Part shown: positions 11,404 through 34,286 of the stretch, piece by piece | How positions within the stretch are numbered: the stretch's first letter is position 1 | Layout: each line of letters begins with the position of its first letter | NCBI RefSeq assembly: GCF_001904615.1 | Contig: NZ_MRBY01000031.1 | Span: 1 to 46,035, forward strand | Reading direction: 5' to 3' | Origin: [Limnothrix rosea] IAM M-220 | Lineage (GTDB): Bacteria > Cyanobacteriota > Cyanobacteriia > Cyanobacteriales > MRBY01 | DNA length: 46,035 nt | Notes under the pieces: generated by a model | The model's database searches: none | What the model was told of the DNA's origin: nothing | The model's input: the letters and a program-made list of their open reading frames with translations, nothing else | Made by a program: the position numbers and the translations under genes

Positions 11404-11563
11404 TGTTTTTTGTTTTAACAAGCTTGAGTAATGGTGATCTACGGAAAAAATAACTGTAGGAAGCCTAGCGGTTCCGTAAAATCGCTAAATATTCGCTGTT
11501 TAAAAGGTGTTTTTAAATATGCGTAATAAAATGCTGTCCTACAACAAAAACGAGGCAAACTTT

Positions 11564-13276: not shown

Positions 13277-13387
13277 AAATCCTTGGATTAGTTTACTAGA
13301 GGGGTCTCTGGGAAAGATTCCCCTCCATATCTTTTGGGTTGTCAAGCGGGGCGATCGCCCCCAGTACTGAGTGAGAAATTTATCCCC

Positions 13388-14890: not shown

Positions 14891-14923
14891 TGAAGACCTC
14901 CAAGGGTTCGAATTTTATACATT

Positions 14924-14936
14924 GTTGATTCTCAAC
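14924..14936. promoter_or_regulatory. Short inverted repeat in the ggpS leader/promoter
   Basis: GTTGATTCTCAAC has perfect 5-bp arms around TCT. It lies 34 bp upstream of the ggpS start, next to a minus-strand TATAAA. It could be an operator for a salt-responsive regulator or a leader hairpin. There is no direct evidence for either. Confidence 0.25.
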
Positions 14937-15362
14937 TTACTTTTTTAAGGGGATATTTCTAGAAAAAGTAACTGCATCTATTATGCTACCGAGAACAAAC
15001 GTTATGACTGCCAACAAATAGACAAAATATTGCAAACTGCAAACTCGTTATGGCATCAAAACCGCAGGGATAAATCTGTGAACAGGGAAGTTTTGTTCAA
15101 GGTCGTGATCCATTGGGTAATTTCAAACTACTAAAATTTAGGCGTTTTAAGTATCGAGTTGTGCAAATCGCTTTGTCTGAGCTTCTCCCTCATGGTTTAT
15201 ATTCAGGCTACAAAGCAACAGTGGAATTTATGCTAGTAACGCTGAGCGCTCAATTTGACCAATAACAGACTTGAGTGGTCACACTTTGTATGATGTATCA
15301 AAAATGATGCTGAAGCCTTGGTTCGCATTCGGTATTTTTGGTCAGTAAAGTGTACATAATTG

Positions 15363-15382
15363 CTTTAACAATATTGCTAAAG
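15363..15382. promoter_or_regulatory. Imperfect 20-bp palindrome in the ggpS-gghA1 spacer
   Basis: CTTTAACAATATTGCTAAAG is its own reverse complement except for one mismatched pair (positions 6 and 15 of the element). The element is long enough for a dimeric regulator and lies between divergent osmolyte genes. Function is a guess from position. Confidence 0.3.
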
Positions 15383-15957
15383 TCGAATGCAAGGAGCTAA
15401 GTGAGCTCTCGGTAGTTGATCAAATATATTCATGATTATATGGAGCAATAACTACAACTCTATTGGTCATGCTAGAAGCATAACACTATCGCCTTGGTGA
15501 GATCATTTACCTAGCGAAACATAAATAAATAGACCTAGAGAGTGATAATTTTTTTTGTATAAAAAGTGTGGGAATATTTTTCTTCTTAATATATTTTTTA
15601 TGATTCGTTTCTCTACTACTTTTGTTTGTATGTGGTTGTTTTTTTCTTGGAATGCTTGATATGACAGGCTTTTTGGGATTGGTTTCTGTTGGTAAGTTGT
15701 TTTTTATTGAGTTTTTTTTGGTTGATTTATCTTTTATTTCTGGGATTGAATGTATTGGAGAATTCTGGCGGTCAAGGTGTTTATTGGATGAAGGTAGCTG
15801 CATCGCTTATGTGTCGCTATGTTGCTTTGGGTCTCTGGGTATATGTCTATAGGTAGAGAAACGTGTTTTTTGTTTATTGTTCGTGATGAAGGCTTTTTTG
15901 AATCGTTTAGTATTTGAAGTAATTATCGAATAGTTGTTGTTGCGGTCATTGGAACAA

Positions 15958-18522: not shown

Positions 18523-18651
18523 GGCAAGATCAGGCAAGATAGCCGCAACCTAGCGGTGGTTGACCCAGGGCAATTTTTTTGTGAGTGAGGCGATCGCCCT
18601 AGATTTTCTGGGCATATTTTATCGACCATTGTTGTTACCCCAACGAACTGA

Positions 18652-21012
18652 GTGACTATTTCCCCCCAACTTAAATTAATTATCGACCAAACCCAACAGC
18701 TATTAACTTGGGCAAAAAACATTGAGGACAACAGTACTGATGTGTTTGCAGTGGCGCAGCACCTTACCCGTAAATTAGGGGCTCACTATCGGGCTGACGG
18801 GCTAACGGAGTTTGGTTTTTGGGTGCCTGATGCGAGTCGGGAGCCATTTTATCTGGAGGTTTTTACACCGCTGAATGCCATTGATTTTCGCCTTGCAAAT
18901 CAAGAGATCCAATGTCGTTTAGATCGGGTAAATCTTCCTCGCCAAGGGGAGTTTGTCTGGGGTGTTGTGGCGGGTTTACAGGCAGGCGATCGCCACCAAT
19001 CAGGTGCTTTCTATTGGCTACGACAGGGAGAAGATGATACTCCTGAAAACATTGTGCGCGATATTTTTGCCGATTCATTACCCTACGGAATTTTTGCGCC
19101 AGCAGAACTTTACAATATGGCGAAATTGCAGGGCGATCGCCGTGACCTTGAATATTTTCAAACAAATGCCGTTGTAAAACCGCCGACAAATATTTTGCAA
19201 ATTCATGTGGGCACAGCATCGAAAGAAGGCACCTTTGAGGGGTTGACCCACATTTACCAAAAGCTTTCCCAAAAACTGGCCAACAAACAAGTTTTAACCA
19301 CCGCCGAAAAAAATTATGTGGGGTTTGACGCGATTGAACTATTGCCCATTGAGCCAACGGTGGAGTATTTGCCAGAAGGAGAACTGATCAATCAACGCTT
19401 TTGGCAGGTGATGTCGGCATCAAATCGCTATCTACACATTAAGCTCCGTAAGCCTGACGTTAAAAATTGGGGCTACGATGACCCCATTATCGGAGCCGCG
19501 GCGGTGAGTCCGTCCCAACTGGGTAGTTTGCGTCCGACAGAAATTGTCGATTTTATTGCCACTGTGCACAACTTTTCCCAAGGTGCTATTCAAGTCATTT
19601 TTGACCTCGTGTATGGCCATCTCCATAACCAGGCTCTACTTCTGATTAATGCGCGATTTTGCCGTGGCGATAATATGTATGGTCAGGATACCAATCAGCA
19701 GCATCCCATGGTGCGGGCTATTTTACTGGAATTGGAGCGCCGTAAAATTAATCTCGGTGCCGATGGGATTCGCGTGGATGGCGGGCAGGATTTTCAAATT
19801 AAAGATGAGCGAGGCCGTCTCGACTATGACTCTGGTTTTCTCCTCGCCATGGGTGATGTAAAGCAGGAAATCGGCGGACATTGCCGCAAAATTTTAGCGA
19901 TTTACGAAGACGGCCGACCTTGGCCTAACTCTGGTTGGGAATTGAAGGCAACCTATCGCGATCTAATCGAGCAAAAACCGGATTGCTTTCAGTGGAGTCC
20001 GCTAATTTTTGAACATAATACGCCGACATTACAGGGCTTTTGGATACAAAAATGGGGGGATGTTTCCCGCACGATGTGGCAAGGCGATCGCTGGATTACG
20101 GGCTATGCCAATCACGATACGGTGCGCAAGGGCAACCAAATTGATACGAGGGCGACGCGTATTAATGAGTATTTTGGGGAAACTTTACCGGAGATTTTAC
20201 GAAATGCCTATGACAATCCTGCGACCCAGTTGTGGATTTATGGCTTTAGTCCGGGTATTCCCATGGACTTTCTTAATGCCCTAATGCATGCGCCTTGGGG
20301 TTTTTTCCGTAATACGGATGATCACTATGGGGTGAAGGTGGCGGCGGAGGAAATTGGTTTTTTTTACTGGCAAGTGACACCGGAACTGTACCAGCAGCCC
20401 TGGGCGTTTCGTCATTTAAAAGAGTTTGGGTTTCGCACCCTGAAGCAAGCCCGCCACTTACTTAAAACCTTTGAAAAGGCGATCGCCACTTTAGACTACG
20501 ACCTCGAAAAAATTGCCGAGTTTTGTCGGGCGCAATTATCCCCGAATTACCCGCGCCTCAGTTATCTCGATGTGACGCAGCTAAAACTCATTGCCACAGC
20601 CTTTGTGGAGGATGGCCACGCTGTTTCCCAAGTGCACCATTATTTCAACAATTTACCCCGCGATCGCTGCAATTTTAACTACGCACTGCGGCAATATCGC
20701 AAAAATCAGCCTTGGCTACAGCAAAATCTCTGCTTTGAGCAGGGTGATCGCTTTCACCATATGTCCGATGATAAACGCACGGTTTTCTATGGAATGCGTA
20801 CAAATCCGGTGACCAAAGAGCGTTTGGCTATGGTTGTCCATATGGCTGGTGCACCCATGACTGTCACCCTAGGGTCGTGGCTCTGTCTTGATCTCGCCCA
20901 ATGGCACTTGGCGATCGCCACCCCGGGTTTGGATATTGTGGAGACTACCGAGCTAGAGCGCATCAAACTGCGTAATGGTGAAGGTTTTATCATTACGACG
21001 GAACCACCCTAG
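18652..21012 (+). CDS. gghA: Glucosylglycerol hydrolase (Slr1670-like, GH13-type), paralogue 2
   Basis: This 786-residue protein is clearly homologous along its whole length to the gene before it (shared NYVGFDAIELLPIEPTVEY, VYGH, GQD, WITGYANHDTVRKGNQ). The catalytic set is complete: Asp376 in GIRVDGG, Glu419 in YEDGRPW and Asp489 in NHD. It is about 70 residues shorter, mainly because of gaps before the barrel and near the C-terminus. Translation starts at GTG 18652. It lies 102 bp upstream of glpK, which would phosphorylate the glycerol released. Different substrate preference or salt range from paralogue 1 is possible but unseen. Confidence 0.85.
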   Translation: MTISPQLKLIIDQTQQLLTWAKNIEDNSTDVFAVAQHLTRKLGAHYRADGLTEFGFWVPDASREPFYLEVFTPLNAIDFRLANQEIQCRLDRVNLPRQGEFVWGVVAGLQAGDRHQSGAFYWLRQGEDDTPENIVRDIFADSLPYGIFAPAELYNMAKLQGDRRDLEYFQTNAVVKPPTNILQIHVGTASKEGTFEGLTHIYQKLSQKLANKQVLTTAEKNYVGFDAIELLPIEPTVEYLPEGELINQRFWQVMSASNRYLHIKLRKPDVKNWGYDDPIIGAAAVSPSQLGSLRPTEIVDFIATVHNFSQGAIQVIFDLVYGHLHNQALLLINARFCRGDNMYGQDTNQQHPMVRAILLELERRKINLGADGIRVDGGQDFQIKDERGRLDYDSGFLLAMGDVKQEIGGHCRKILAIYEDGRPWPNSGWELKATYRDLIEQKPDCFQWSPLIFEHNTPTLQGFWIQKWGDVSRTMWQGDRWITGYANHDTVRKGNQIDTRATRINEYFGETLPEILRNAYDNPATQLWIYGFSPGIPMDFLNALMHAPWGFFRNTDDHYGVKVAAEEIGFFYWQVTPELYQQPWAFRHLKEFGFRTLKQARHLLKTFEKAIATLDYDLEKIAEFCRAQLSPNYPRLSYLDVTQLKLIATAFVEDGHAVSQVHHYFNNLPRDRCNFNYALRQYRKNQPWLQQNLCFEQGDRFHHMSDDKRTVFYGMRTNPVTKERLAMVVHMAGAPMTVTLGSWLCLDLAQWHLAIATPGLDIVETTELERIKLRNGEGFIITTEPP

Positions 21013-21114
21013 AGGCGGCGATCGCCCATTGATAACCTAATTTTTCAATATCTAACTTTTTTATAAACCACTTTTTTTTAACATCACCTAAAAAACTTTG
21101 ATTTGGGAGAAATA

Positions 21115-22623
21115 ATGGCAAACTCAAAATATGTAATGGCGTTAGATCTCGGCACAACTGGTAACCGAGCCCTCATTTTTAACGCAGCCGGCGACATCGT
21201 TGCCCAAGCCTACAAAGAATTACCCCAGCATTATCCCCAGCCCGGTTGGGTTGAGCATGATGGGATGGATATTTGGCAAGATGCCCAAACCGTGATGCAG
21301 CAAGCGATGCGGGAAAATAATATTGCTCCCACCGAGATTGCTTCCATTGGGCTGACCGTACAGCGCGAGACCTGTTTACTCTGGGATAAAACCACCGGCA
21401 AACCCCTCCACAACGCCATTGTGTGGCAAGATCGCCGCACCGCAGATTTTTGTAGCAAACTCAGTGCAGCAGGCAAAGCCAGTGCAATTTACGACAAAAC
21501 GGGTTTAGTCTTAGACGCTTATTTCTCCGCGACAAAACTCAATTGGTTATTGGATTGGGCGAAAAAAAATAGTGACATCAATTTAGACCATGTTCTTGCT
21601 GGAACCGTTGACACTTGGGCTTTGTGGAATCTCACTGGCGGCAAAGTTCACGCCACGGATCACAGTAACGCCAGCCGGACAATGTTACTCAATCTCAACA
21701 CGCAAAATTGGGATGCGGAACTACTGGATTTATTTGGAATTCCCGCGTCAATGATGCCCAAGGTGCAATCGAGTTTAGGCGTTTTTGGTTACACCGATCC
21801 CGCTTTATTCGGTGCAGAAATTCCCATTGCCGCCATCTTTGGGGATCAACAGGCAGCCCTCTATGCCCATGGTTGCGATCGCCCCGGTTTGTTGAAATGT
21901 ACCTATGGCACGGGGGCGTTTTTAGTGGCTCACACGGGTGATCAAATTACGCGATCCCAGCACAAACTGTTAACTACCATTGCCTGCACCCAGCTCAATG
22001 CCGATCAGACGAAAACCGAGGTGGGTTATGCCCTTGAGGGGAGCATGTTTACCGCTGGAGCTTGTGTCCAATGGTTGCGGGATGGTCTAGAAATTATTAA
22101 ATCTGCCAGCGAAACGGAAGGACTTGCTTTGTCTGTGCCCGATAATGGCGGCGCATATTTTGTGCCTGCCCTGAGCGGTTTGGGTGCGCCCCACTGGGAT
22201 ATGGCGGCAAGGGGAGCATTTCTAGGGATTACCCGTGGCGTTGGGAAAGCCCATATGGTTCGCGCAGTACTGGAGGCGATCGCCTACCAAGCCAAGGAAG
22301 TAGTTGACGCGATTAATGAAGATTCCGGCACACCGATTAAAGAACTTAAGGTCGATGGCGGTGCTTGCCAAAACAATTTTTTGATGCAGTTCCAAGCCGA
22401 TGTGTTGGGGATTCCCGTGGAACGTCCCGCCGTGCTCGATGCCACCGCCCAAGGCGCAGCTTTTGCCGCAGGTTTAGCCGTGGGTTTCTGGGATAGTTAC
22501 GAAAAACTGGTGGGCGATCGCCAAATTGATCGCGTATTTACCCCCGGTAACGGAGCCGCCGCCGCCCAAGCAAACTTTGCGACATGGCAAAAAGCCGTGG
22601 AACGCGCCAAAGACTGGATTTAA
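21115..22623 (+). CDS. glpK: Glycerol kinase
   Basis: GlpK phosphorylates glycerol to glycerol 3-phosphate. The 502-residue FGGY-family protein shows the N-terminal ATPase phosphate motif ALDLGTTGNRALIF, the substrate region GLTVQRETCLLWDKTTGKP with IVWQDRRT, the core GDQQAALYAHGC and C-terminal LKVDGGACQNNFLMQFQADV. The ATG at 21115 has GGGAG spaced 8 bp ahead; an upstream in-frame TTG at 21103 is less likely. Its position between gghA2 and ggpP points to recycling of glycerol from glucosylglycerol turnover rather than growth on glycerol. Confidence 0.96.
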   Translation: MANSKYVMALDLGTTGNRALIFNAAGDIVAQAYKELPQHYPQPGWVEHDGMDIWQDAQTVMQQAMRENNIAPTEIASIGLTVQRETCLLWDKTTGKPLHNAIVWQDRRTADFCSKLSAAGKASAIYDKTGLVLDAYFSATKLNWLLDWAKKNSDINLDHVLAGTVDTWALWNLTGGKVHATDHSNASRTMLLNLNTQNWDAELLDLFGIPASMMPKVQSSLGVFGYTDPALFGAEIPIAAIFGDQQAALYAHGCDRPGLLKCTYGTGAFLVAHTGDQITRSQHKLLTTIACTQLNADQTKTEVGYALEGSMFTAGACVQWLRDGLEIIKSASETEGLALSVPDNGGAYFVPALSGLGAPHWDMAARGAFLGITRGVGKAHMVRAVLEAIAYQAKEVVDAINEDSGTPIKELKVDGGACQNNFLMQFQADVLGIPVERPAVLDATAQGAAFAAGLAVGFWDSYEKLVGDRQIDRVFTPGNGAAAAQANFATWQKAVERAKDWI

Positions 22624-22645
22624 CGTTTTTTTATTTAGCGAAAAG

Positions 22646-22665
22646 TCCCCCTGTGTTAAGGGGGA
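22646..22665. repeat. GC-rich hairpin between glpK and ggpP
   Basis: TCCCCCT (22646-22652) pairs with AGGGGGA (22659-22665) across GTGTTA. The arm sequence resembles the 'agggggattta' intergenic repeats common in cyanobacteria. No T run follows, so it is more likely an mRNA-stabilising or REP-like hairpin than a strong terminator. Confidence 0.5.
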
Positions 22666-22710
22666 TTTAGGGGGAGCTCCCCATCACAATTATTGATTAC
22701 ACAGAGGTTT

Positions 22711-23958
22711 ATGATTTTCTCGCCGCTCCATGAGCAATCCTACTCCCTTAACCATGAGGCGTTTATTAAAACCCTCGCCACCACCGAAAATTTACTAATC
22801 ATCCAAGACCTCGATGGCGTTTGTATGGGTTTAGTGAAAGATCCCCTCACCCGCAAAATTAGCCCCGACTATATCCGTGCGACCCAGCAATTTGACAGCC
22901 ATTTTTTCGTGCTAACCAATGGTGAACACGAAGGACGACGGGGCGTTAACCGTATCGTTGAAAAAGCTTTTAGTAATGGTGATCAAGTTTCCTATTTACC
23001 CGGTTTAGCGGCAGGTGGTGTCCAGTGGCAAACCCGTAACGGCGAAATTTCCCATCCCGGTGTCACCCAAGCCGAACTTACGTTTTTGGCTTCGGTGCCG
23101 ATGTTTATCGAGCAAAGTTTAGCCACTTTTTTTGAAGAGCATTCAGACTATTTCGCCGAGTCAAAACGCAAGATGCTCGTTCAGGCGGCAGTACTTGATA
23201 ACCTTGTTTCTCCCACGGCAAATCTCAATGTTTTAGCAGAACATTTGCAGGACAATCTCGATATTTACCTGCAACTCCAAAAGGCGATCGCCGCCCTGAT
23301 GGATGACCTTTTAGACAAAGCCAAAGCACAAGACTTAGACAATAGCTTTTTCGTCCATTACGCCCCAAACCTAGGGCGGGACGACAACGGCAAAGAAATT
23401 GTGCGGTTTGCCACAGCTAGCGATTCCGGTACAACAGATTTCCAGTTTATGTTGCGCGGCGCGGTCAAAGAAGCAGGTGTGCCAGTGTTGCTCAACCATT
23501 ATTATCATCAGCGTACGGGCAGCTATCCCCTCGGTGCCGAGTTTAACGCTCGCCAAGCCCCCCAAGAAAATAGCGCGTTATTGCAACTCATAAAAGATAA
23601 TTTCGACCCAGCTTTGATGCCCCTAATCATTGGCGTGGGCGATACCATCACCAGCCAAATCGAACTCGATACTATCCGTCGCGGCGGTAGCGATCGCCTA
23701 TTTTTGCAACTAATCCAAGACATAGGCGCATGGGCAAAGAGCAGTAATCTTGTCACATACATCGACAGTTCCCAAGGCGAACTAAAAAACCGAATCCCCC
23801 TGACCCTCGATGAAATTAACGGCGAAATGAAAGTCGTAACAGGCGTAACCGATCCCGCCGATCCCCTACAGATCAACATCGCATTCCCCGGTGGCTTCCA
23901 GCAATACACCGCCGCTTTCCAAGAAGCCGCTAATTTACGCACCCAAGCGAAGCACTGA
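22711..23958 (+). CDS. ggpP: Glucosylglycerol 3-phosphate phosphatase (GgpP/StpA)
   Basis: GgpP removes phosphate from glucosylglycerol phosphate, the second and final step of GG synthesis. The 415-residue protein has HAD-like catalytic motifs: QDLDGVCMGL (motif I, DxD) near residue 33, VLTNGEH (motif II) and GVGDTITS (motif IV) near 310. Distinctive family stretches are YLPGLAAGGVQWQ, FFVHYAPNLGRD and GDSGTTDFQF-like SDSGTTDFQF. The ATG at 22711 has AGAGG upstream; TTG 22693 would add six residues. ggtA follows within 31 bp, the same ggpP-ggtA adjacency as in Synechocystis sp. PCC 6803. Confidence 0.94.
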   Translation: MIFSPLHEQSYSLNHEAFIKTLATTENLLIIQDLDGVCMGLVKDPLTRKISPDYIRATQQFDSHFFVLTNGEHEGRRGVNRIVEKAFSNGDQVSYLPGLAAGGVQWQTRNGEISHPGVTQAELTFLASVPMFIEQSLATFFEEHSDYFAESKRKMLVQAAVLDNLVSPTANLNVLAEHLQDNLDIYLQLQKAIAALMDDLLDKAKAQDLDNSFFVHYAPNLGRDDNGKEIVRFATASDSGTTDFQFMLRGAVKEAGVPVLLNHYYHQRTGSYPLGAEFNARQAPQENSALLQLIKDNFDPALMPLIIGVGDTITSQIELDTIRRGGSDRLFLQLIQDIGAWAKSSNLVTYIDSSQGELKNRIPLTLDEINGEMKVVTGVTDPADPLQINIAFPGGFQQYTAAFQEAANLRTQAKH

Positions 23959-23986
23959 TACCTGATCACTGATAACTGTTAACTGA
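23956..23986. repeat. Short CTGATAAC-type repeats between ggpP and ggtA
   Basis: The ggpP-ggtA spacer is built of variants of ACTGATAACTG (CTGATAC, CTGATCACTGATAACTG, TTAACTG). Such runs are widespread between cyanobacterial genes. The repeat begins at the ggpP stop codon and takes up the usual ribosome-binding region of ggtA, which has no clear Shine-Dalgarno. Confidence 0.5.
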
Positions 23987-23988
23987 CT

Positions 23989-25077
23989 ATGGCAAGCGTA
24001 ACCTTCGAACAGGTAACCAAACAATTTGGCGACTACACCGCCGTTAATAACCTAAATTTAGAAATTGCCGATGGAGAATTTCTGGTGTTTGTGGGGCCAT
24101 CCGGCTGCGGTAAAACCACGTCATTGCGGCTATTAGCAGGCTTAGAAACCATTAGCTCCGGTAACATCTGGATCGGCGATCGCCCCGTAAATCAACTGTC
24201 CCCAAAAGATCGTGACATTGCGATGGTGTTCCAATCCTACGCCCTGTATCCCCACATGAGCGTCTTTGAAAATATGGCCTTTAGCTTGCAATTGCAGGGC
24301 AATTCCAAAGCCGACATCAAAAAACGAGTCCAAAGTGCCGCAGCGCAGCTTGGCATCGAAACATTATTGCACCGTAAACCCAAAGAATTATCCGGCGGCC
24401 AACGGCAACGAGTGGCAGTCGGGCGGGCGATCGTGCGGCAACCAGCGGTTTTTCTGATGGATGAACCCCTATCGAACCTCGACGCAAAATTGCGGGTACA
24501 GGCGCGGAAGGAAATTAGTAAATTGCAACATGATCTCAAAACAACTTTTATTTACGTCACCCACGACCAAGTAGAAGCCATGACCATGGGCGATCGCATT
24601 GCCGTGATGAAAGACGGCATTTTGCAGCAAGTCGATAGCCCCGCCAATCTCTATAACAATCCCGCTAATAAATTTGTGGCGAGTTTTATCGGGAGTCCAG
24701 CCATGAACTTTTTTGAAATTGAGCAGACCACCGCAGCCGGTAATCCTGTCCTCAAAATTGGCGATCAAACCCTTCCTCTGCCTAGCTCAGTAAATCTTGG
24801 TAATAATCCTGTCACCCTCGGTATCCGTCCCGAAAATATTTACCACCCCCAATATTTGCCGCCGGATATTCATAGCATCAAAATCTCGGCGATCGTTAAC
24901 CTAATCGAAATGATGGGCAACGAACTCATCGTCTATTTACAAACCTCTGACAACATCGAATTTGTCGCGCGCATCGATCCTCGTGCTGAGGTGGCGGAAG
25001 GACAAGAGCTATCTTGGCTATTCGATACAGAGCGGCTGTACTTTTTTGATCGCGATATGGAAACCGTTCTAGCCTAA
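23989..25077 (+). CDS. ggtA: Glucosylglycerol ABC transporter, ATP-binding subunit
   Basis: GgtA powers uptake of glucosylglycerol (also sucrose and trehalose in Synechocystis), mainly recovering solute that leaks out. The 362-residue protein is MalK-like: Walker A GPSGCGKTT, Q-loop MVFQSYALYPHM, signature LSGGQRQRVAVGRAI, Walker B VFLMDEPLSNLD and H-loop YVTHDQVEAM. A C-terminal OB/TOBE region (about 240-362) contains LGIRPENIY. It sits between ggpP and ggtB, so here all four transporter genes are clustered, whereas in Synechocystis ggtA is apart from ggtBCD. Confidence 0.93.
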   Translation: MASVTFEQVTKQFGDYTAVNNLNLEIADGEFLVFVGPSGCGKTTSLRLLAGLETISSGNIWIGDRPVNQLSPKDRDIAMVFQSYALYPHMSVFENMAFSLQLQGNSKADIKKRVQSAAAQLGIETLLHRKPKELSGGQRQRVAVGRAIVRQPAVFLMDEPLSNLDAKLRVQARKEISKLQHDLKTTFIYVTHDQVEAMTMGDRIAVMKDGILQQVDSPANLYNNPANKFVASFIGSPAMNFFEIEQTTAAGNPVLKIGDQTLPLPSSVNLGNNPVTLGIRPENIYHPQYLPPDIHSIKISAIVNLIEMMGNELIVYLQTSDNIEFVARIDPRAEVAEGQELSWLFDTERLYFFDRDMETVLA

Positions 25078-25168
25078 GTATTTACGCTTATCGTGTTAGA
25101 GAAATCTTTTTTTGAAACTTCCTTAAAAAACCTTATTTAAATTTTTAATTCCATAATTTAATCTCACA

Positions 25169-26482
25169 ATGAAAACTTTCTTCTCTCAATTTCAGCTCAA
25201 CTCCACAGCGAAATACCTTACGCCTCTTTTAGCTGGGTCAATGCTCCTCGCTAGTTGCCAACCCGCAGATCAAGCCGGTGGCGGTGGCGGAGAAAATGAT
25301 CAACCCCAAGTGACAATTCTCGGCGTGATGATCGGCGAACAACAAGAAAAAGTTGAAGCCGCCCTTGCCCCCTTTACCGAAGAAACGGGCATTGAAGTAG
25401 TTTATGAAGGCACAGATTCCTTCGCCACAACCCTACCGATCCGTGTGGATTCCGGTAGCCCACCAGACTTAGCCATGTTTCCCCAACCCGGTTTGATGGC
25501 AGATTTTGCCCGCGAAGGCATGATGATTCCCCTCACCGAATTTATGACCGAGGAAGAGCTAGCCGCCGCCTATGATCAGGCATGGATTGATTTGGGGACA
25601 GTGGACGGTGATGTCTACGGTGCTTGGTATCGTGCCTCTGTGAAAAGTTTGGTGTGGTACAACCCTGAGCAGTTCGACGCGAATGGTTATGAAGTGCCGA
25701 TGTCATGGGACGAAATGCTGGCATTGAGTGACCAAATCGTATCCGAAGGAAAAACCCCTTGGTGTCTGGGTATGGAAAGTGGCGATGCAACGGGTTGGGT
25801 TGGTACGGACTGGGTAGAGGAAATTATGCTGCGAACAGCTTCCCCGGAAACCTATGACCAATGGATTAGCCACGAAATTCCGTTTAATGATCCGGCGGTG
25901 AAAAATGCCGTGGATAAATTCGGTGAGATTGCCCGCAATGAGGAGTATATTTACGGCGGCATGGTGGGTGCTTTGAGTACGCCTTTTGGGGATTCGATTC
26001 GGGGTTTATTTGGCGAAGAACCGAATTGTTACCTCCACAAACAGGGCAATTTTATCGCCGCATTTTTGCCGGAAGACATCGACACCGCTAGCGAAGTGGG
26101 AATTTTTCCTCTGCCGAGTATTGACCCTGCATATGGCTTGCCTGTGTTGGTTGCTGGAGATGTGTTTGGCATGTTTAACGACACCCCCGAAGCGCGACAG
26201 TTGATGGAATACCTCACCACAAAAATTCCCCACGAAGTTGCCGCAGAGCTGGGTGGTTATATTTCTCCCCGCAAGGATATTGACCCAGCCCTTTACCCTG
26301 ATGATTTGACGCGGGTGCAGGCAGAAATTCTTGATAATGCCGATGTCATTCGGTTTGATGCGTCGGATATGATGCCCGGTGCGGTGGGAACTGGCACATT
26401 CTGGTCGGGCATGGTGGACTATGTCGGCGGCACGGATGCAGACACGGTTTTACAGAACATTGAAGACAGTTGGCCAGAGTAA
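25169..26482 (+). CDS. ggtB: Glucosylglycerol ABC transporter, substrate-binding lipoprotein
   Basis: A 437-residue periplasmic solute-binding protein of the carbohydrate type. The N-terminus is a lipoprotein signal with lipobox LLASC and lipidated Cys30, followed by a Gly-rich linker. The mature domain has the usual two-lobe sugar-binding features (LGVMIGEQQEKVEAALAPF, GSPPDLAMFPQPG, WDEMLALSDQIV, SWCLG-like PWCLGMESGDATGW, FLPEDIDTASEVGIFPLPS). It follows ggtA by 91 bp and precedes ggtC. The gap after it contains GC-rich hairpins that could reduce read-through into the permease genes, a common way to make the binding protein most abundant. Confidence 0.93.
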   Translation: MKTFFSQFQLNSTAKYLTPLLAGSMLLASCQPADQAGGGGGENDQPQVTILGVMIGEQQEKVEAALAPFTEETGIEVVYEGTDSFATTLPIRVDSGSPPDLAMFPQPGLMADFAREGMMIPLTEFMTEEELAAAYDQAWIDLGTVDGDVYGAWYRASVKSLVWYNPEQFDANGYEVPMSWDEMLALSDQIVSEGKTPWCLGMESGDATGWVGTDWVEEIMLRTASPETYDQWISHEIPFNDPAVKNAVDKFGEIARNEEYIYGGMVGALSTPFGDSIRGLFGEEPNCYLHKQGNFIAAFLPEDIDTASEVGIFPLPSIDPAYGLPVLVAGDVFGMFNDTPEARQLMEYLTTKIPHEVAAELGGYISPRKDIDPALYPDDLTRVQAEILDNADVIRFDASDMMPGAVGTGTFWSGMVDYVGGTDADTVLQNIEDSWPE

Positions 26483-26489
26483 ATCAATC

Positions 26490-26572
26490 CTTCCTTGGGG
26501 AAGGTGCCGAAGGCGGAAGGGGTTGCGATAGTCTACGGAAACCCACCCCTTAATCCCCTCCCAAGAGGGGAA
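26490..26572. repeat. GC-rich hairpin repeats between ggtB and ggtC
   Basis: This stretch has a CCTTCCTTGGGGAAGG hairpin and, at 26555-26570, CCCCTC-CCAA-GAGGGG. The surrounding 'ccccttaatcccctccc' wording is a familiar dispersed cyanobacterial intergenic element. It may stabilise ggtB mRNA or attenuate transcription before ggtC. No T-rich tail makes it a clear terminator. Confidence 0.5.
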
Positions 26573-26634
26573 TTTAGTTAAGGCGTTTTTATCCGAAATG
26601 GTTCATTTTATGAACAATTGAATTGGGGGGAATA

Positions 26635-27612
26635 ATGGAAATTTTGTATCGAATTGGCTCAGTGGTGTTGGCGATCGCCCTCGGATGTGGCGGCGTAATT
26701 GGGCTATTTTATGGCGCAAATTTAGCGATTAATGCGTTGCCGAAACCGTGGAATAATCGTCTGTTGCCTTGGGTCTATATTTCACCAGCGTTGGCATTGC
26801 TGTCGGGCTATTTGATTTTGCCCACCATTCAAACCATTTACCTAAGTTTTTTTGATGGGCGATCGCAGAATTTTGTCGGGCTAAAAAACTACATCTTTGC
26901 CTTTACCGATCAGTCGATGCGGGTGGCTTTCAGGAATAATTTGCTGTGGCTAGTGTTGGTGACGGGCATTAGCGTCAGTTTGGGCTTAATTATCGCGGTG
27001 CTCGTGGATAAGGTGAAGTACGAGGCGATCGCCAAATCTCTGATCTTTCTCCCCATGGCGATTTCCTTTGTGGGGGCAAGCGTCATCTGGAAATTTATCT
27101 ACGCCTACAAACCCGCCGGCGATGCCCAAATCGGTTTACTCAATGCCGTGGTGGTGAGTTTAGGCTTTGAGCCCGTGGGCTGGCTGGTGGAAAGGTCAGT
27201 CAACAATTTTGCCCTAATTGCCATCATGATTTGGCTGTACACCGGATTTTGTATGGTGATCCTCTCAGCAGCAGTGAAAGGCATTCCCGAAGATGTGATC
27301 GAAGCCGCAAAAATTGACGGGGCAAATAGTTGGCAAATTTTCTTTCGCATCACCATCCCGATGATTCGCTCCACCATTCTTGTGGTCAGTACCACGGTGG
27401 TGATTTTGGTATTAAAAGTTTTCGATATTGTCTTTGTGATGACAGGCGGTAACCAAGGCACAGAGGTGATTGCCAGTCGTATGATCAAAGAAATGTTTAA
27501 CTTCCGCAACTTTGGGCGTGGGTCGGCGATCGCCGTGATTTTATTAATCCTGATTATCCCCGTGATGATTGGTAATATTCGTCGGTTTCGTACCCAAGAA
27601 AAACTGCGTTAA
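26635..27612 (+). CDS. ggtC: Glucosylglycerol ABC transporter, permease subunit
   Basis: A 325-residue inner-membrane permease of the sugar ABC type. Hydrophobic helices are evident near 8-30, 45-70, 105-130, 140-160, 200-220, 245-265 and 300-320. The EAA loop that contacts GgtA reads EAAKIDGANSWQIFFRITIP at about residues 222-241. Start choice: ATG 26635 follows GGGGGGAATA; TTG 26623 is in frame but lies inside that ribosome-binding sequence. It pairs with GgtD, whose gene is displaced about 1.1 kb downstream by a toxin-antitoxin unit and a small ORF. Confidence 0.93.
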   Translation: MEILYRIGSVVLAIALGCGGVIGLFYGANLAINALPKPWNNRLLPWVYISPALALLSGYLILPTIQTIYLSFFDGRSQNFVGLKNYIFAFTDQSMRVAFRNNLLWLVLVTGISVSLGLIIAVLVDKVKYEAIAKSLIFLPMAISFVGASVIWKFIYAYKPAGDAQIGLLNAVVVSLGFEPVGWLVERSVNNFALIAIMIWLYTGFCMVILSAAVKGIPEDVIEAAKIDGANSWQIFFRITIPMIRSTILVVSTTVVILVLKVFDIVFVMTGGNQGTEVIASRMIKEMFNFRNFGRGSAIAVILLILIIPVMIGNIRRFRTQEKLR

Positions 27613-27687
27613 TGACGTTCACTGCTCAAATGAGTATGCCACTCTGAATTAGAAACATTGCCTAAAAAACGTGTTTGGAAAAGCGTA

Positions 27688-27948
27688 ATGACACTTAAAG
27701 AAAAACTCCATCAAATTATCGATAGTGCTGACGAAAATAGCCTTCAAGTTCTGTGGCAATTTTGGCAACAAAACCAGCACCAATCTTTAGAGCTTACTGC
27801 CGTCCCGCTTGACTCTGTTGACTTGAGTCCCTTCGAAGAGACCAATGGTTTACTCATCATTAAAGAAGCATACGATGTTAATTTAGACAAAACGGATTGG
27901 GTGGAAATTTCTAGAGAAGAACGTCTTCAGCAAATTATGGAGCTATGA
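27688..27948 (+). CDS. Putative antitoxin of a PIN-domain toxin-antitoxin pair
   Basis: An 86-residue small acidic protein directly upstream of a PIN-domain gene. Its TGA stop overlaps the toxin's ATG by 4 bp (ATGA at 27945-27948), the translational coupling typical of TA pairs. The C-terminus WVEISREERLQQIMEL resembles the R-D/E-E-R-I tail of cyanobacterial antitoxins that sit before VapC-like toxins. The N-terminal half (LKEKLHQIIDSADENSLQVL) is helical. ATG 27688 is preferred over an in-frame TTG at 27658. No classical ribbon-helix-helix or AbrB fold is evident by eye. Confidence 0.7.
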   Translation: MTLKEKLHQIIDSADENSLQVLWQFWQQNQHQSLELTAVPLDSVDLSPFEETNGLLIIKEAYDVNLDKTDWVEISREERLQQIMEL

Positions 27949-28376
27949 AGGTTTTATTTGATACCAATATCGTGGTTGCTTCGTTTCTCAAGCATCACTC
28001 TCATCACAAACTCGCTTTACCATGGCTCGAAAAAACAAAAAATAATGAGATTCAAGGTTATCTTTCCACGCATTCTCTGAGTGAAATTTATAGTGTTTTG
28101 ACTCGCATTCCTCTTCCTACTCCTATTTCCTCTAAACAAGCCCAATATCTAATCACAACTAATCTCCAGCAATTCACTTTTGTCTCTTTAGATAGCCCTG
28201 ATTACTTTCGGATTTTAGGACGAGTTGCTCAGTTAAATATTACTGGCGGCGGAATTTTCGACGCAATTATTGCCGAAGCTGCATTAAAGATAAAAGCCGA
28301 TGTACTTCTCACTCTTAATCTCAAACATTTTGTTCGTTTGGGCGACGATATTCAATCTATTGCGCGATCACCGTGA
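27945..28376 (+). CDS. PIN-domain ribonuclease toxin (VapC-like)
   Basis: A 143-residue PIN-domain protein. The acidic metal-binding residues are recognisable: Asp6 in KVLFDTNIV, Glu47 in SLSEIYSVL and Asp106 in GGGIFDAIIAEAAL. LLTLNLKHFVRL matches the 'T-N-x-x-HF' end of the fold. PIN toxins cleave RNA, often tRNA or rRNA, when the antitoxin is lost. The coupling to the upstream ORF supports a TA module. The pair has no HIP1 sites and interrupts the ggtC-ggtD order, suggesting later insertion. Confidence 0.85.
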   Translation: MKVLFDTNIVVASFLKHHSHHKLALPWLEKTKNNEIQGYLSTHSLSEIYSVLTRIPLPTPISSKQAQYLITTNLQQFTFVSLDSPDYFRILGRVAQLNITGGGIFDAIIAEAALKIKADVLLTLNLKHFVRLGDDIQSIARSP

Positions 28377-28422
28377 TTTTATTGATGTTGAATAAAATAA
28401 AACATTTCTACGAGGAGGAATA

Positions 28423-28632
28423 ATGAAGTTTGTTTTGTGCTTAAAAAACGAGAACTATGCAGCATCCCTTGAGCCACGGAAAATTTATCAAACTATTGAG
28501 GATGCTCAAGCTCAGACAAAAAACTTTCTCAGAATTATTGATGAGTCTGGCAAGGATTATCTTTATCCTGCAAATTATTTTGCACCGATTCAAGTCCCGG
28601 ACAGTGCTATTTCGCTTTTTGCAACTTCGTAA
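28423..28632 (+). CDS. Small conserved protein of unknown function
   Basis: A 69-residue protein with a strong ribosome-binding site (GAGGAGG, 6 bp before the ATG). Its pattern (LKNENYAASLEPRKIYQTI, then RIIDESGKDYLYPANYFAPIQVP) resembles a family of short bacterial proteins that occur as solo genes in many cyanobacteria. It lies between the PIN toxin and ggtD and may have arrived with the TA pair. No function is known to me. Confidence 0.7.
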   Translation: MKFVLCLKNENYAASLEPRKIYQTIEDAQAQTKNFLRIIDESGKDYLYPANYFAPIQVPDSAISLFATS

Positions 28633-28680
28633 TCATTTCCCAGCTAATCCATAAATTCAGCAATTTCAACCTTTATCGTC

Positions 28681-29547
28681 ATGGCAGCAGTTAAGCAAAA
28701 ACAAGCCTTTTGGCAGAAAATGCCCATTCATATCGCGATTGTGGCGATCGCCTTTTTGTGGACATTACCCAGTGTCGGTTTGCTGATCAGTTCCCTCCGC
28801 AAACGGGACGACATGCTGACGACGGGTTGGTGGACAGTCTTTCAACATCCCTTTGAACTGACGCAATATCACCTCGGCAACTACATCGACGTGATCAATT
28901 CCCAGGGGATGGGGCAGTCATTTTTAAATAGTCTGACTATCTCCATTCCCGCCACCATTATTCCCATTGCGATCGCCTGTTTTGCAGCCTATGCCTTTGC
29001 TTGGATGAAATTTCCGGGGCGACAATTGCTGTTTATTTTGGTGGTTTGTCTGCTGGTTGTGCCGCTCCAAACGACGCTGATTCCCGTATTGCGCGTGTAT
29101 CGAGATTGGGGATTGTCCAATAGTTTTCTGGGAATTTGGCTGGCGCACACCGGTTATGGTTTGCCCCTCGGCATTTATCTGTTGCGCAACTATATCGGCG
29201 CATTACCGAAGGATTTGATCGAAGCGGCTCAGGTGGATGGTGCATCCCATCTGAAGATTTTTACGAAATTAATTGTGCCCCTCTCGATGCCGGCGATCGC
29301 CTCCTTTGCGGTCTTTCAATTTCTCTGGGTGTGGAACGATTTGCTGATCGCATTGGTTTATCTCGGTGGTACGCCAGACGTTGCGCCAGTCACGATCCAG
29401 CTCACAAACCTCGTCGGTTCCCGTGGGCAAGATTGGCATCTTTTAACGGCAGGGGCGTTTATTTCAATGACTGTGCCGCTGATGGTTTTCTTTGGGCTGC
29501 AACGGTATTTTGTGCGCGGTATTTTGGCGGGTTCTGTGAAATCTTAA
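28681..29547 (+). CDS. ggtD: Glucosylglycerol ABC transporter, permease subunit
   Basis: A 288-residue permease of the MalG type, partner of GgtC. About six helices are visible, starting at 15-37 (IHIAIVAIAFLWTLPSVGLL). The EAA loop EAAQVDGASHLKIFTKLIVP lies near residue 180. The ATG has no obvious Shine-Dalgarno. Its stop overlaps the 3' end of the convergent PNPOx-like gene by 4 bp (29544-29547). Distance from ggtC is about 1.1 kb, so expression may need a promoter within the inserted segment or read-through. Confidence 0.93.
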   Translation: MAAVKQKQAFWQKMPIHIAIVAIAFLWTLPSVGLLISSLRKRDDMLTTGWWTVFQHPFELTQYHLGNYIDVINSQGMGQSFLNSLTISIPATIIPIAIACFAAYAFAWMKFPGRQLLFILVVCLLVVPLQTTLIPVLRVYRDWGLSNSFLGIWLAHTGYGLPLGIYLLRNYIGALPKDLIEAAQVDGASHLKIFTKLIVPLSMPAIASFAVFQFLWVWNDLLIALVYLGGTPDVAPVTIQLTNLVGSRGQDWHLLTAGAFISMTVPLMVFFGLQRYFVRGILAGSVKS

Positions 29548-30104
29548 GCCTTATGAAAAATTGCTTTGAGAGAATTGAGATTGAGCTGAATTTTCGTATC
29601 GACTAATTGCTCATCAACTGTGAGGCGATCGCCTGTCACCCAGACTTTTTCGGGAGTAAATTTATACATCCGGCGACAAGACTGCCCTAAATAATCTTTG
29701 GCGAGGCGAGGATTGGGACGTTTGGCGCGTTGGTCAAAAAGTTTGAGAATATTTTGTGCTGCCATTTCGCCATTTAATTCCGTCGCAAACCCCGAAAAAT
29801 ACACTGCTTTCACCTTTGCCACATCGTATAGAGTGATGAATGATCGCCCTTCATTTTGCGCTAAATTTTGGGAATGTTGGGCGGCGATCGCCGAAGACCA
29901 GTAAAGATTCAATTCCTGATCAAACACGTAAAACAGAGGTGTTGACCAAGGTATTCCGCCAATAGAAGCTGTCGCTAAAGTGCAATAAATTTGTTCAGAA
30001 ATTAAAGAAGCAGCAAGGGCGATCGCCCCAGTACTTTCCAAGCTTTCCGACTCAGCGGTATTCACCCACCCATTAGCTGCTGTCGCGATTTGCGGTTTCG
30101 ACAT
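29544..30104 (-). CDS. Pyridoxamine 5'-phosphate oxidase-like flavin-binding protein
   Basis: A 186-residue split-barrel protein. SEQIYCTLATASIGGIPWSTPLFYVFDQELNLYW read in pieces (CTLATAS, IPWSTPLFYV, LNLYWSSA) is the FMN-binding beta-barrel opening of the PNPOx-like family. VKAVYFSGFATEL and RMYKFTPEKVWVTG complete it. The ATG at 30104 is preferred; an in-frame TTG at 30113 adds three residues. Substrate is unknown; many such proteins bind FMN, F420 or haem. It is divergent from the DCC-family gene. Confidence 0.75.
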   Translation of the reverse strand: MSKPQIATAANGWVNTAESESLESTGAIALAASLISEQIYCTLATASIGGIPWSTPLFYVFDQELNLYWSSAIAAQHSQNLAQNEGRSFITLYDVAKVKAVYFSGFATELNGEMAAQNILKLFDQRAKRPNPRLAKDYLGQSCRRMYKFTPEKVWVTGDRLTVDEQLVDTKIQLNLNSLKAIFHKA

Positions 30105-31156: not shown

Positions 31157-32494
31157 GTGGCAACTCGCGTCATTATCGTGCGTCACGGACAAAGTACTTA
31201 CAACGCTCTCAAAATGATCCAAGGACGTTGTGACGAATCAGTACTCACCGACAAAGGGATCGCCGATGCCACAACCGTAGGTAAAACCCTCAACGGCATC
31301 AACTTCGCCGCCATCTATTGCAGCCCCCTCCAACGCGCAACCCAAACCGCCCAAACAATTCATGCTCAACTTGGCGAGGGTAATCCCGCACCAGTCCCCG
31401 CCGAAGGATTACGGGAAATTGATTTGCCCAACTGGGAAAAAATGCCCAAAACTGAAGTTGCCGAAAAATTTCCAGAAGAATACCGTCTCTGGCACGAAAA
31501 GCCCGCTGAATTTTGCATGATTCTCCCCGACGGCACAGAGCATTACCCCGTGAGAAGTCTCTATGAACAAGCCAAGGGTTTCTGGCAAGAAATTCTAGCT
31601 AAACACAAAGACGAAACCATTCTCATCGTTGCCCACAATGGCATTAACCGTTGCCTAATCATGAGTGCCTCCGGCATTGACCCCAGCAAATATCAAGGCA
31701 TCCAACAATCCAACTGCTGCATTAACGTCATTAATTTCAAAGGCGGTCTAGGCGAAACAGTTCAATACGAATCCCTCAACCAAACCGAACATCTCGGCGT
31801 AAAAATTCCCTCTTTCCGTCCCGGCCATGAAGGTCTACGGATTTTGTTAGTGCGCCACGGCGAAACCAACTGGAATAAAGAAGGTCGTTTCCAAGGCTCT
31901 AAAGATATTCCCCTCAACGATAATGGTCGCGCCCAAGCCGCCAAGGCACAGGCATTTCTCAAAGATGTCGAGTTGCATTTTGCCATGAGTAGTTCTTTGA
32001 GCCGTCCGAAGGAAACCGCCGAAATTATCCTCCAAGCCCACGGTGATATTCCCCTTGACACCCATGATGAACTGATCGAAATTGGTCATGGTCTCTGGGA
32101 AGGCAAGCTAGAAGCAGAAATTGAAGCGGGTTTCCCCGGTATGCTCGAAGAATGGCAAACCACTCCCGAAACGGTGCAAATGCCTGAGGGGGAAAATATC
32201 CAAGGGGTTTGGGAGCGTGCCAATAGGGCTTGGGATGAAATTATCGAAAGATATGCGGCGAAGCCTAACCAAGTGGGCATTGTTGTTGCCCATGATGCGA
32301 TTAATAAGGTGATTCTTTGTCGTTTGATGGGTCTGCAACCTAAAGATATTTGGGCGATTAAACAGGGAAATTGTGCGGTGACGGTCATTGATTACCTCAA
32401 GGGTGCTGATAGTGAACCGATTGTGCAGGCGATGAATATTACTTCTCATCTAGGTTTTGGGGTCATCGATAAAACTGCTGCTGGTGCGCTGTAA
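31157..32494 (+). CDS. Two-domain histidine phosphatase (phosphoglycerate mutase-like)
   Basis: A 445-residue protein with two complete histidine-phosphatase domains. Domain 1 has IVRHGQSTYN near the N-terminus and IVAHNGINRCL near residue 165. Domain 2 has LVRHGETNWN near 232 and VVAHDAINKVIL near 380. The RHG motif and the second catalytic His are present in both, so both may be active. Related double-domain proteins in phototrophs are annotated as phosphoglycerate mutase-like or 2-carboxyarabinitol-1-phosphatase-like; the substrate cannot be told from sequence. I choose GTG 31157 because GGAGG lies 8 bp ahead; the longer frame from TTG 31142 starts inside that ribosome-binding site. The stop lies in a tandem repeat. 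Confidence 0.85.
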   Translation: MATRVIIVRHGQSTYNALKMIQGRCDESVLTDKGIADATTVGKTLNGINFAAIYCSPLQRATQTAQTIHAQLGEGNPAPVPAEGLREIDLPNWEKMPKTEVAEKFPEEYRLWHEKPAEFCMILPDGTEHYPVRSLYEQAKGFWQEILAKHKDETILIVAHNGINRCLIMSASGIDPSKYQGIQQSNCCINVINFKGGLGETVQYESLNQTEHLGVKIPSFRPGHEGLRILLVRHGETNWNKEGRFQGSKDIPLNDNGRAQAAKAQAFLKDVELHFAMSSSLSRPKETAEIILQAHGDIPLDTHDELIEIGHGLWEGKLEAEIEAGFPGMLEEWQTTPETVQMPEGENIQGVWERANRAWDEIIERYAAKPNQVGIVVAHDAINKVILCRLMGLQPKDIWAIKQGNCAVTVIDYLKGADSEPIVQAMNITSHLGFGVIDKTAAGAL

Positions 32495-32524
32495 GCTGGT
32501 GCGCTGTAAACTGGTGCGCTGTAA
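32480..32524 (+). repeat. Three 15-bp tandem repeats spanning the phosphatase stop codon
   Basis: GCTGGTGCGCTGTAA occurs at 32480-32494 and 32495-32509 and, with one change, at 32510-32524. Each copy ends in TAA in the same frame, so the stop codon has been copied twice beyond the functional one. It resembles the stop-codon repeat at narB but the sequence is unrelated. Confidence 0.92.
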
Positions 32525-32554
32525 AAATGAGTAGATAAAAAAAACAACAAATAA

Positions 32555-32570
32555 AGGGGCGATCGCCCCT
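32555..32570. repeat. HIP1-centred palindrome AGGGGCGATCGCCCCT
   Basis: A perfect 16-bp palindrome around the HIP1 octamer GCGATCGC. HIP1 is scattered through the window in dozens of copies, within genes (often encoding Ala-Ile-Ala, Gly-Asp-Arg or Arg-Ser-Pro) and between them. This copy is among the longest symmetric extensions. It may double as a weak terminator stem after the phosphatase gene. Confidence 0.8.
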
Positions 32571-32578
32571 AATGTGAA

Positions 32579-32688
32579 ATAAATATTTTTCCCATGGGAC
32601 TAGGGCGACAGTCATTAATTTGATTCTTCCAGCGTTCCTCACTGTGCCTGATAAATATTTTTCCCATGGGACTAGGGTGACAGTCATT
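32579..32688. repeat. Pair of 38-bp direct repeats
   Basis: Copies at 32579-32616 and 32651-32688 differ at one base (C/T in TAGGGCGACAG versus TAGGGTGACAG). Each contains TTTTTCCCATGGGACTAGGG, with the palindrome CCCATGGG inside. Start-to-start distance is 72 bp. They could be a duplicated regulatory site upstream of the coiled-coil gene or a remnant of a small mobile repeat. Confidence 0.9.
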
Positions 32689-32820
32689 GTCGGTGGTTTT
32701 TTCATAAACACTTTCTCAGAAATAATCCACCTCTGAGGCCAACCATGGGAGGATATTTGAGGTGTGAGGCTGATTCCCATATACCCCGACAAAATTATTA
32801 TTTAATATTGTTTTTGATTT

Positions 32821-33576
32821 ATGGAAAATATCTCTGACTTCAACAAAAATATTGCTGTTTTATATGAAAAAGATTCTAGTATCAATAAAACCGTTGCCAT
32901 CAAAGAACTTCTAGACTGTGACGAAATTGGATTAGAAATAGTCAAGCGTTTTGTTTTAGATAGAACGAATCGAGTCAGTGTTAGGTTGCTTGCCCTTGCT
33001 GAGCTATGGAATCACCAAGCTGACTACAAGGATTGGATTATTACGCTGATCGAAGCAGAACAGGAATATTTATTTTTACAGCAAGATTTTCTGGATTTTC
33101 TCTACAAAAATGGTGACGAACAATGGCTAGAAAGACTTTCTAAAAGTCAAAATCAAACCCTTAGGGTAAAGGCCTCGGAGGTGTTTTTACAAAAGCTCCA
33201 TAAACGGATTTCCCAGCTTAATGAATCTGTGATTCCCTATCAACAATCTCTAGAGATTGAAAATCAAAAATTGAGGGATTTATCTGCTCTGCTAGATGCG
33301 GAAAAACGTGAGGAAAGCCGACTCTATCAGGAAATAGAAAAAATTAAACGGGAAATTGGGCAGTTAGAGGAGCGCAAGCAAAAACTTAATTTAGAAATTT
33401 CTGTGCAAAGGGACAATGTGAATGCGTGCCAAACAGAGCTAAATGATATTCAGTCTGAAAAGGAGCGGGAAATCCATGCTCTACAACGACGAATCCAAGA
33501 GTTGTCTACTCTGTTTCAGCAGAAGGAAATGGCTCATTTAGCTGAAACGGATTTAGCGGCTAGCCGTTTTTCTTGA
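32821..33576 (+). CDS. Helical-repeat plus coiled-coil protein, unknown function
   Basis: A 251-residue protein. Residues 1-130 are helical and Leu-rich and resemble HEAT-like repeat packing (VSVRLLALAELWNHQ, LRVKASEVFLQKL). Residues 130-240 form a long coiled coil rich in Glu, Lys and Gln with heptad spacing of Leu and Ile. There is no signal peptide or membrane segment, so a cytoplasmic scaffold is plausible. The 38-bp direct repeats lie just upstream. I do not recognise the family. Confidence 0.6.
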   Translation: MENISDFNKNIAVLYEKDSSINKTVAIKELLDCDEIGLEIVKRFVLDRTNRVSVRLLALAELWNHQADYKDWIITLIEAEQEYLFLQQDFLDFLYKNGDEQWLERLSKSQNQTLRVKASEVFLQKLHKRISQLNESVIPYQQSLEIENQKLRDLSALLDAEKREESRLYQEIEKIKREIGQLEERKQKLNLEISVQRDNVNACQTELNDIQSEKEREIHALQRRIQELSTLFQQKEMAHLAETDLAASRFS

Positions 33577-33725
33577 TGGCTGTAGTGATTTTCAAGGGGT
33601 GATGCGGCGATCGCCAATTATTATGCCAACACTATGCTCTTCTACCAAACAAAGATCACAAACCCCATCAGAGATTCACGAAGCATCCTAAGATAAATAA
33701 GTCTGAACGGATTTTAAGTTAATCG

Positions 33726-34286
33726 ATGGAAGATTTGCTCAAAGGATTAAATATTTACCTCGTCGGCATGATGGGCACGGGGAAAAGTACCCTCGCCAAG
33801 ATTATTGCGGAGATTATGAACTACCGCGTTCTAGATTCTGACGACATTATTGAGCAGCTTGCAGGCGCTTCAATTAGTGACATTTTTGCTGAGATGGGCG
33901 AACCGGAATTCCGTAAACTTGAAACCCAAGTGCTGGGCAAAATTGCGGTACAAACCCGTACCGTTGTGGCGACGGGCGGCGGTATTATTTTGTCCAAGGA
34001 TAATTGGTATTATCTCCGCCAAGGTTTAACGATCTGGCTCGATGTGCCCATGCCATTACTTATGGATCGTTTACGCAGCGATACGAAACGGCCGCTATTG
34101 CGTAATGTCGACCTTGAAACCAAACTGAGTCAACTGCTCAATGAACGGCGATCGCTGTATCAAGAAGCCGATTTACATTTTTCGATTAGTACTGCTCGGC
34201 CACCCCGCGCTGTGGCAGAAGACATCATTGCCACCATTCCCTCTGTGCTGCGTAAACCACCGCAAATCATTGGTGAGAACAACTAG
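33726..34286 (+). CDS. aroK: Shikimate kinase
   Basis: AroK phosphorylates shikimate at the 3-OH, the fifth step of the shikimate pathway to aromatic amino acids. The 186-residue protein has Walker A GMMGTGKST, the Mg/shikimate-binding DSDDIIE, the glycine-rich ATGGGIIL and the lid region with SDTKRPLL. Length and layout are standard. It lies 141 bp upstream of argB on the same strand. Confidence 0.95.
   Translation: MEDLLKGLNIYLVGMMGTGKSTLAKIIAEIMNYRVLDSDDIIEQLAGASISDIFAEMGEPEFRKLETQVLGKIAVQTRTVVATGGGIILSKDNWYYLRQGLTIWLDVPMPLLMDRLRSDTKRPLLRNVDLETKLSQLLNERRSLYQEADLHFSISTARPPRAVAEDIIATIPSVLRKPPQIIGENN

Follow-up and report, generated by a model that had tools for sequence, protein, structure and literature searches.

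We present a toxin-antitoxin (TA) cassette that separates ggtC and ggtD, the two permease genes of a transport operon of the glucosylglycerol (GG) type, which serves salt protection, in [Limnothrix rosea] IAM M-220. The cassette lies in a contig of 46,035 nucleotides, the whole of which was analyzed and is hereafter called the window. It is an insertion of 1,066 bp, absent from all five other genomes of the genus, and was probably acquired. We propose that it entered at the stop/start overlap of ggtC and ggtD after the split from the nearest relative compared (genome G072), that the translational coupling of the two genes was ended by it, and that it has since been tolerated as a selfish module; for this account as a whole we set a probability of about 0.75.

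The transporter genes and their neighborhood

Positions 10342-29547 of the window form a GG neighborhood with gpsA-like, glpD-like, ggpS, glpK, ggpP and ggtABCD genes. GG-phosphate synthase is encoded here (TIGR02398, 3.4e-263), and the gene directly upstream of ggtA codes for glucosylglycerol 3-phosphatase (TIGR02399, 1.4e-154). The transporter genes are:

23989-25077, + strand: ggtA, ATPase of the UgpC/MalK type, belonging to the same transporter as ggtB, ggtC and ggtD
25169-26482, + strand: ggtB, solute-binding protein
26635-27612, + strand: ggtC, permease of 325 residues counted from ATG; BPD_transp_1 at 3.7e-15; 95% identical to the G072 protein
28681-29547, + strand: ggtD, permease of 288 residues, intact; BPD_transp_1 at 2.9e-17; 97% identical to the G072 protein

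No Ggt-subunit-specific NCBIfam model was found for these proteins. We nevertheless assign them as a predicted GgtABCD, a GG-type ABC transporter, on the basis of the solute-binding protein, the two BPD_transp_1 permeases, the UgpC/MalK-type ATPase, the GG genes nearby and the gene order published for GgtABCD of Synechocystis (PMC6753628 and PMC2874817).

The insert, its ends and its composition

The window reads ggtC stop, ATG, 1,066 bp and then the ATG of ggtD, and both permease genes flanking the insert are intact to the codon:

27612-27614, + strand: left ATG of a 3-bp direct repeat, at which ggtD formerly began, overlapping with the ggtC stop codon; an 11-codon remnant ORF now starts here
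27615-28680, + strand: insert of 1,066 bp, 37.8% G+C, no HIP1 site, splitting the ggtC-ggtD junction
27688-27945, + strand: putative antitoxin, 86 residues, with a conserved C-terminal REER-type toxin-side motif
27945-28376, + strand: putative PIN (VapC-type) toxin, 143 residues; its start overlaps the antitoxin stop (ATGA)
28423-28632, + strand: small ORF coding for a conserved protein of 69 residues, with AGGAGG upstream of its start
28681-28683, + strand: right ATG of the direct repeat, where ggtD starts today; no Shine-Dalgarno-like sequence (-0.3 kcal/mol)

A sequence-only reading of this DNA had recognized three ORFs between ggtC and ggtD, a coupled TA pair followed by a small ORF, and they lie where it placed them; its insert was correctly located and drawn too narrowly, at 27688-28632 instead of 27615-28680. 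The same reading took the missing HIP1 sites as pointing to insertion, an argument that proves weak, because the 6,626 sites in the 4.07-Mb genome amount to an expectation of 1.74 in 1,066 bp, and at that rate a stretch without any site has a probability of 0.18. Moreover, HIP1 is likewise missing from 71 of 900 stretches of this length taken from the window, some of which overlap the insert. The low G+C content is a better sign of insertion: it stands at 37.8% versus 48.2% for ggtC and ggtD together, and values as low occur in 12 of the 900 equal stretches, which fall in three places, the insert itself included. Two further stretches of the window, at about 14550-16250 and 32300-33800, are as G+C-poor as the insert or nearly so; the former is in part a non-coding gap between ggpS and an ORF of 815 residues.

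The ends of the insert, read by eye, bear only the 3-bp ATG repeat, which can be a product of chance or of microhomology, and a 6-bp inverted pair, ATGACG/CGTCAT. Pfam detects no recombinase among the three inserted ORFs, and the insert hence does not class as an insertion sequence, an integron cassette or a self-mobile element. Within it there are many weak inverted-repeat pairs, none of them convincing, and a search of its own genome for a second DNA copy returned short weak matches alone. One promoter-like site is found in the insert against 3.5 expected; both terminator-like sites detected fall within ggtD, with none in the insert, and positions 26400-29700 have no Rfam match. We also considered and rejected the insert as a piece of a phage, the PIN protein and the small ORF having no relative in viral_contigs and the small ORF no match in phage records, and as a piece of a plasmid, given that on plasmids the PIN protein has five distant relatives (31-47% identity) and the small ORF one.

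Empty sites in related genomes

A search with GgtD (E<=1e-80) gave a match in 33 of the 291 genomes of the order, that of our organism included. Without exception, the five other genomes of the genus have ggtC directly followed by ggtD, and in four of these the stop and start codons share a base, as TAATG (G072, G106 and G029) or TGATG (G053); at the junction of the fifth (G089) there is an earlier in-frame TGA, with ggtD start codons within a few bases. Gene order around the site agrees with that of G072 over ten genes; in the latter genome the three inserted genes have no match at 1e-8. None of the five congeners yields a match to the PIN protein (E<=1e-10) or to the antitoxin and the small ORF (E<=0.001). 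The comparison with relatives, which the sequence-only reading had recommended, therefore bears out its insertion; the observation that it named as telling against one, the same arrangement throughout the clade, is not what the genus displays.

Across the order the distribution is patchy, with matches to the PIN protein in 43 of 291 genomes (E<=1e-10), to the antitoxin in 8 and to the small ORF in 88 (both E<=0.001), our organism being counted each time. Such a distribution coupled with an empty site in relatives is the mark of a mobile TA cassette, and TA modules are treated as mobile two-gene units in the literature (PMC2701414). At the DNA level ggtD is 84.2% identical between the window and G072, with 113 of 289 third positions different, which places the time of insertion somewhere in a long interval.

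Probable translational coupling of the permease genes and its loss

We compared 35 ggtC-ggtD junctions, the window included, and took those with a gap of -10 to +5 nt as directly joined (22) and the remainder as spaced (13). Left out were L009, L022, L025, L029 and L034 (the same as L108), where no ggtC was found beside ggtD in the stretch; L105, a copy of L015; L027, L028 and L032, replaced by the longer L201, L199 and L200; the partial matches G216 and G283; and the 70 loci L114-L183. A ggtD gene without an adjoining ggtC in the stretch examined was seen in G246, G214 and G172 (L194-L196), G161 (L197) and G279 (L198), where either the pair is split or the contig ends.

The tail of ggtC binds the anti-Shine-Dalgarno sequence at -4.3 kcal/mol or lower in 22 of the 22 directly joined loci, a cut-off that was set after the values had been seen and a sample of related, hence not independent, loci. 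The five congeners write the Gln-Glu of this tail as CAG GAG, with values of -7.4 to -8.4 kcal/mol. The corresponding feature of the window is:

27594-27612, + strand: last ggtC codons, with Gln-Glu written as CAA GAA and no Shine-Dalgarno-like sequence; duplex of -0.5 kcal/mol

Among the spaced loci the tail is weaker than -4.3 kcal/mol in seven (the window, three of one family, L104, L110 and L113) and remains strong in six (five Moorena-like ones and L031), so that loss of the Shine-Dalgarno-like sequence does not always follow from spacing. The present ggtD start is weaker than the cut-off in 12 of these 13, at -0.3 kcal/mol in the window, the exception being L201 at -4.6. When synonymous codons were drawn at random for four tails, 39-71% of the draws attained -4.3 kcal/mol, and under the codon usage of this organism 21% gave a tail as feeble as that of the window; hence the window by itself proves nothing, and the signal resides in the pattern of 22 out of 22. 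Spacers of other kinds also occur between ggtC and ggtD: those of L016, L017 and L020, which belong to one family, measure 98-277 nt and contain short repeated CCCATTGCC-like tracts, and those of the Moorena-like L199-L201 measure 296-504 nt.

These comparisons support a consequence to which the sequence-only reading did not extend, namely that both the stop/start junction and a Shine-Dalgarno-like sequence inside ggtC appear to have been lost. For six gene pairs taken from H. volcanii and E. coli, a distance of about 20 nt between the genes is reported to leave almost no termination-reinitiation, and short overlaps are enriched among genes for subunits of heteromeric complexes (PMC10666635). 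Given that all the directly joined loci carry a Shine-Dalgarno-like tail that the window lacks, the cassette most likely ended the translational coupling of ggtD to ggtC. As to the order of events, we infer that the insertion came first and the loss of the Shine-Dalgarno-like sequence afterwards.

The toxin-antitoxin pair and the small ORF

The PIN protein is recovered by the Pfam models PIN (4.6e-13) and PIN_3 (4.5e-10); TIGR00028, a model of the VapC subfamily, has a cut-off of 73.6 bits, of which the protein reaches 30.8. Its best relative in the order is 50% identical. Of the 49 places matched by it, 30 were examined, the window included, and in every one of the 30 a small partner ORF lies directly upstream of the PIN gene. 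D6 is conserved in 29 of the 30 proteins and E47, D106 and N125 in all; the window protein has all four, which we take to be the catalytic positions. The upstream partners differ at their N-termini, with a MazE match in 9 of 30 and DUF2281 in 5 of 30; at the C-terminus they have one motif in common, in which an Arg is invariant and a Glu-Arg nearly so (REER in the window). As to a known N-terminal DNA-binding domain, the window antitoxin itself matches no Pfam family, and its relatives match DUF2281 weakly. The PIN match, the upstream partner ORF, the shared C-terminal motif and the conserved residues together mark the pair, by sequence, as a type II TA module of the VapBC type, comprising a putative RNA-cutting toxin and its putative antidote. 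The PIN protein has no match among PDB sequences at E<=0.01 and none in PADLOC, where the antitoxin has only a weak match to a desaturase-named model (E 0.0029); single-sequence AlphaFold models were unusable, with mean pLDDT of 37.5 for the PIN protein and 47.8 for the small ORF. The antitoxin has a second, partial match in its own genome, on contig 40 (36% over 73 residues); at this locus (L205, positions 2546-3174 of that contig) an antitoxin with a similar N-terminus precedes a PIN gene that falls into two pieces and has perhaps decayed.

The small ORF belongs to a family with 18 invariant columns in an alignment of 16 sequences and the core KIYQ...IRVIDESGEDYLYP..YF, for which no Pfam family was matched; searches with it returned one chance-level match among PDB sequences (E 0.6) and a weak match in PADLOC (E 0.048). 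Some genomes have it in tandem copies, as on contig 22 of G006. A TA-type gene is adjacent or one gene away in 10 of 19 other loci of this family (L075-L093). Of these neighbors, two PIN, two PemK, one HicB-like and one DUF5615 lie above the Pfam cut-off and four MqsA-like ones below it; at L082 the small ORF directly follows a different PIN gene. As seven of the ten loci come from one family (f2) and the count is uncontrolled, the apparent tie between the small ORF and TA genes is suggestive only.

Proposed history and alternatives

We posit that a VapBC-type cassette with a TA-associated small gene entered this lineage after its split from G072. Its point of entry was the very TAATG at which ggtC stops and ggtD starts; an ATG remained on either side, so that both permease genes stayed intact. 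Before this event ggtD would have been translated by termination-reinitiation on ggtC, and it would now be started independently. The cassette is probably read as part of the ggt transcript and might be tolerated because neither gene was broken; the pair, judged by its sequence, may form a working toxin with RNase activity and the matching antidote, and the module may persist mainly as a selfish, hard-to-lose unit.

The insertion itself could be questioned in two ways. That a foreign stretch was joined into the contig by an error of assembly or binning might be entertained given the draft state of the assembly (92 contigs) and the departure of the insert from its flanks in G+C and HIP1. This is highly improbable in light of its position in the interior of a 46-kb contig with both flanks collinear with G072, the lack of any repeat of it elsewhere in the genome, and neighboring genes that are intact to the codon. 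An ancestral cassette at this junction, precisely deleted by the congeners, is a formal possibility and barely credible: direct ggtC-ggtD junctions are found in 22 of 35 loci from several families, those of the five congeners among them, cassette genes lie between ggtC and ggtD in none of the other 34, and several precise deletions would be needed, each recreating TAATG.

Other alternatives concern what the cassette does. One is that it was kept because it makes the ggt locus more stable or couples expression of the transporter to stress, in line with the sequence-only reading, in which TA activity could link the stability or expression of the transporter to stress or just make the locus hard to lose. 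A locus-stabilizing role has been argued in print for a TA module between hox genes (PMC4963859), and the module of the window likewise sits inside a multi-subunit operon with its toxin residues intact. Yet it is present in one of six genomes of the genus, the remaining five have ggtABCD, or ggtCD at the minimum, and do without it, and promoter-like sites are not enriched in the insert, all of which make this role unlikely. We consider it likewise unlikely that TA control has replaced the coupling, with the GgtC:GgtD permease ratio following antitoxin autoregulation and toxin-mediated mRNA cleavage under stress, ggtD lying in that case downstream of VapB, VapC and the small protein on one transcript; were this so, osmolyte uptake would have come under a stress switch derived from a selfish module. 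Finally, it is doubtful that the small ORF is a functional third TA component as opposed to a hitchhiker. Its conservation in a family with so many invariant columns, the TA-type genes near 10 of its 19 other loci (six above the Pfam cut-off) and the different PIN gene preceding it at L082 speak for such a role; against it, the partners vary among PIN, MazEF, HicB, MqsA-like and DUF5615, seven of the ten TA-neighbored loci stem from one family, and nine of the 19 have no confirmed TA gene.

Significance and comparison with known systems

In the window, a TA module has interrupted two overlapping genes whose products are subunits of one complex; the event is dated and exact to the base, and five congeners supply the empty site. 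The most useful feature of the case is the broken overlap that bore a Shine-Dalgarno sequence, which sets up a natural experiment on two questions: does ending a stop/start overlap alter the ratio and assembly of the two permease subunits, and is a Shine-Dalgarno sequence that lies within the upstream gene subsequently eroded? Attention is drawn as well to a conserved small protein of cyanobacteria that occurs close to TA genes of several kinds. Our literature search, outside whose coverage many subscription journals lie, found no publication on a TA module in ggt genes. Nevertheless, the kind of event is already known in cyanobacteria, since TA modules inside cyanobacterial operons are in print, as for the hox operon (PMC4963859), and the window is a clean new example of it.

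GgtABCD of Synechocystis (PMC6753628 and PMC2874817) likewise comprises a solute-binding protein, two permeases and an ATPase; the set in the window adjoins the glucosylglycerol 3-phosphatase gene and differs in having ggtC and ggtD parted by the TA cassette. The remaining parallels are drawn from PMC4963859. There, a TA module among the hox genes is described and it is asked whether the operon is thereby stabilized: Sll1225-Ssl2420 in hoxEFUYH of Synechocystis PCC 6803 is likewise a type II TA system with a TA-associated gene among genes for subunits of one complex. That operon is a different one, and TA or DUF820 genes recur near hox in several strains, whereas the insertion in the window is found in one of six genomes of its genus. 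Similarly, vapBC10 (slr1767-ssr2962) in the sll1639-sll1641 unit is a VapBC pair within an operon, missing from the close relative PCC 6714; however, it runs antisense to its operon and has a COG2442-type antitoxin, whereas the pair in the window is in sense orientation and splits a stop/start overlap. Cyanobacterial VapBC systems with DUF2281 or AbrB antitoxins also have a PIN toxin downstream of a small antitoxin, and the putative antitoxin of the window departs from them in that it has no Pfam match itself.
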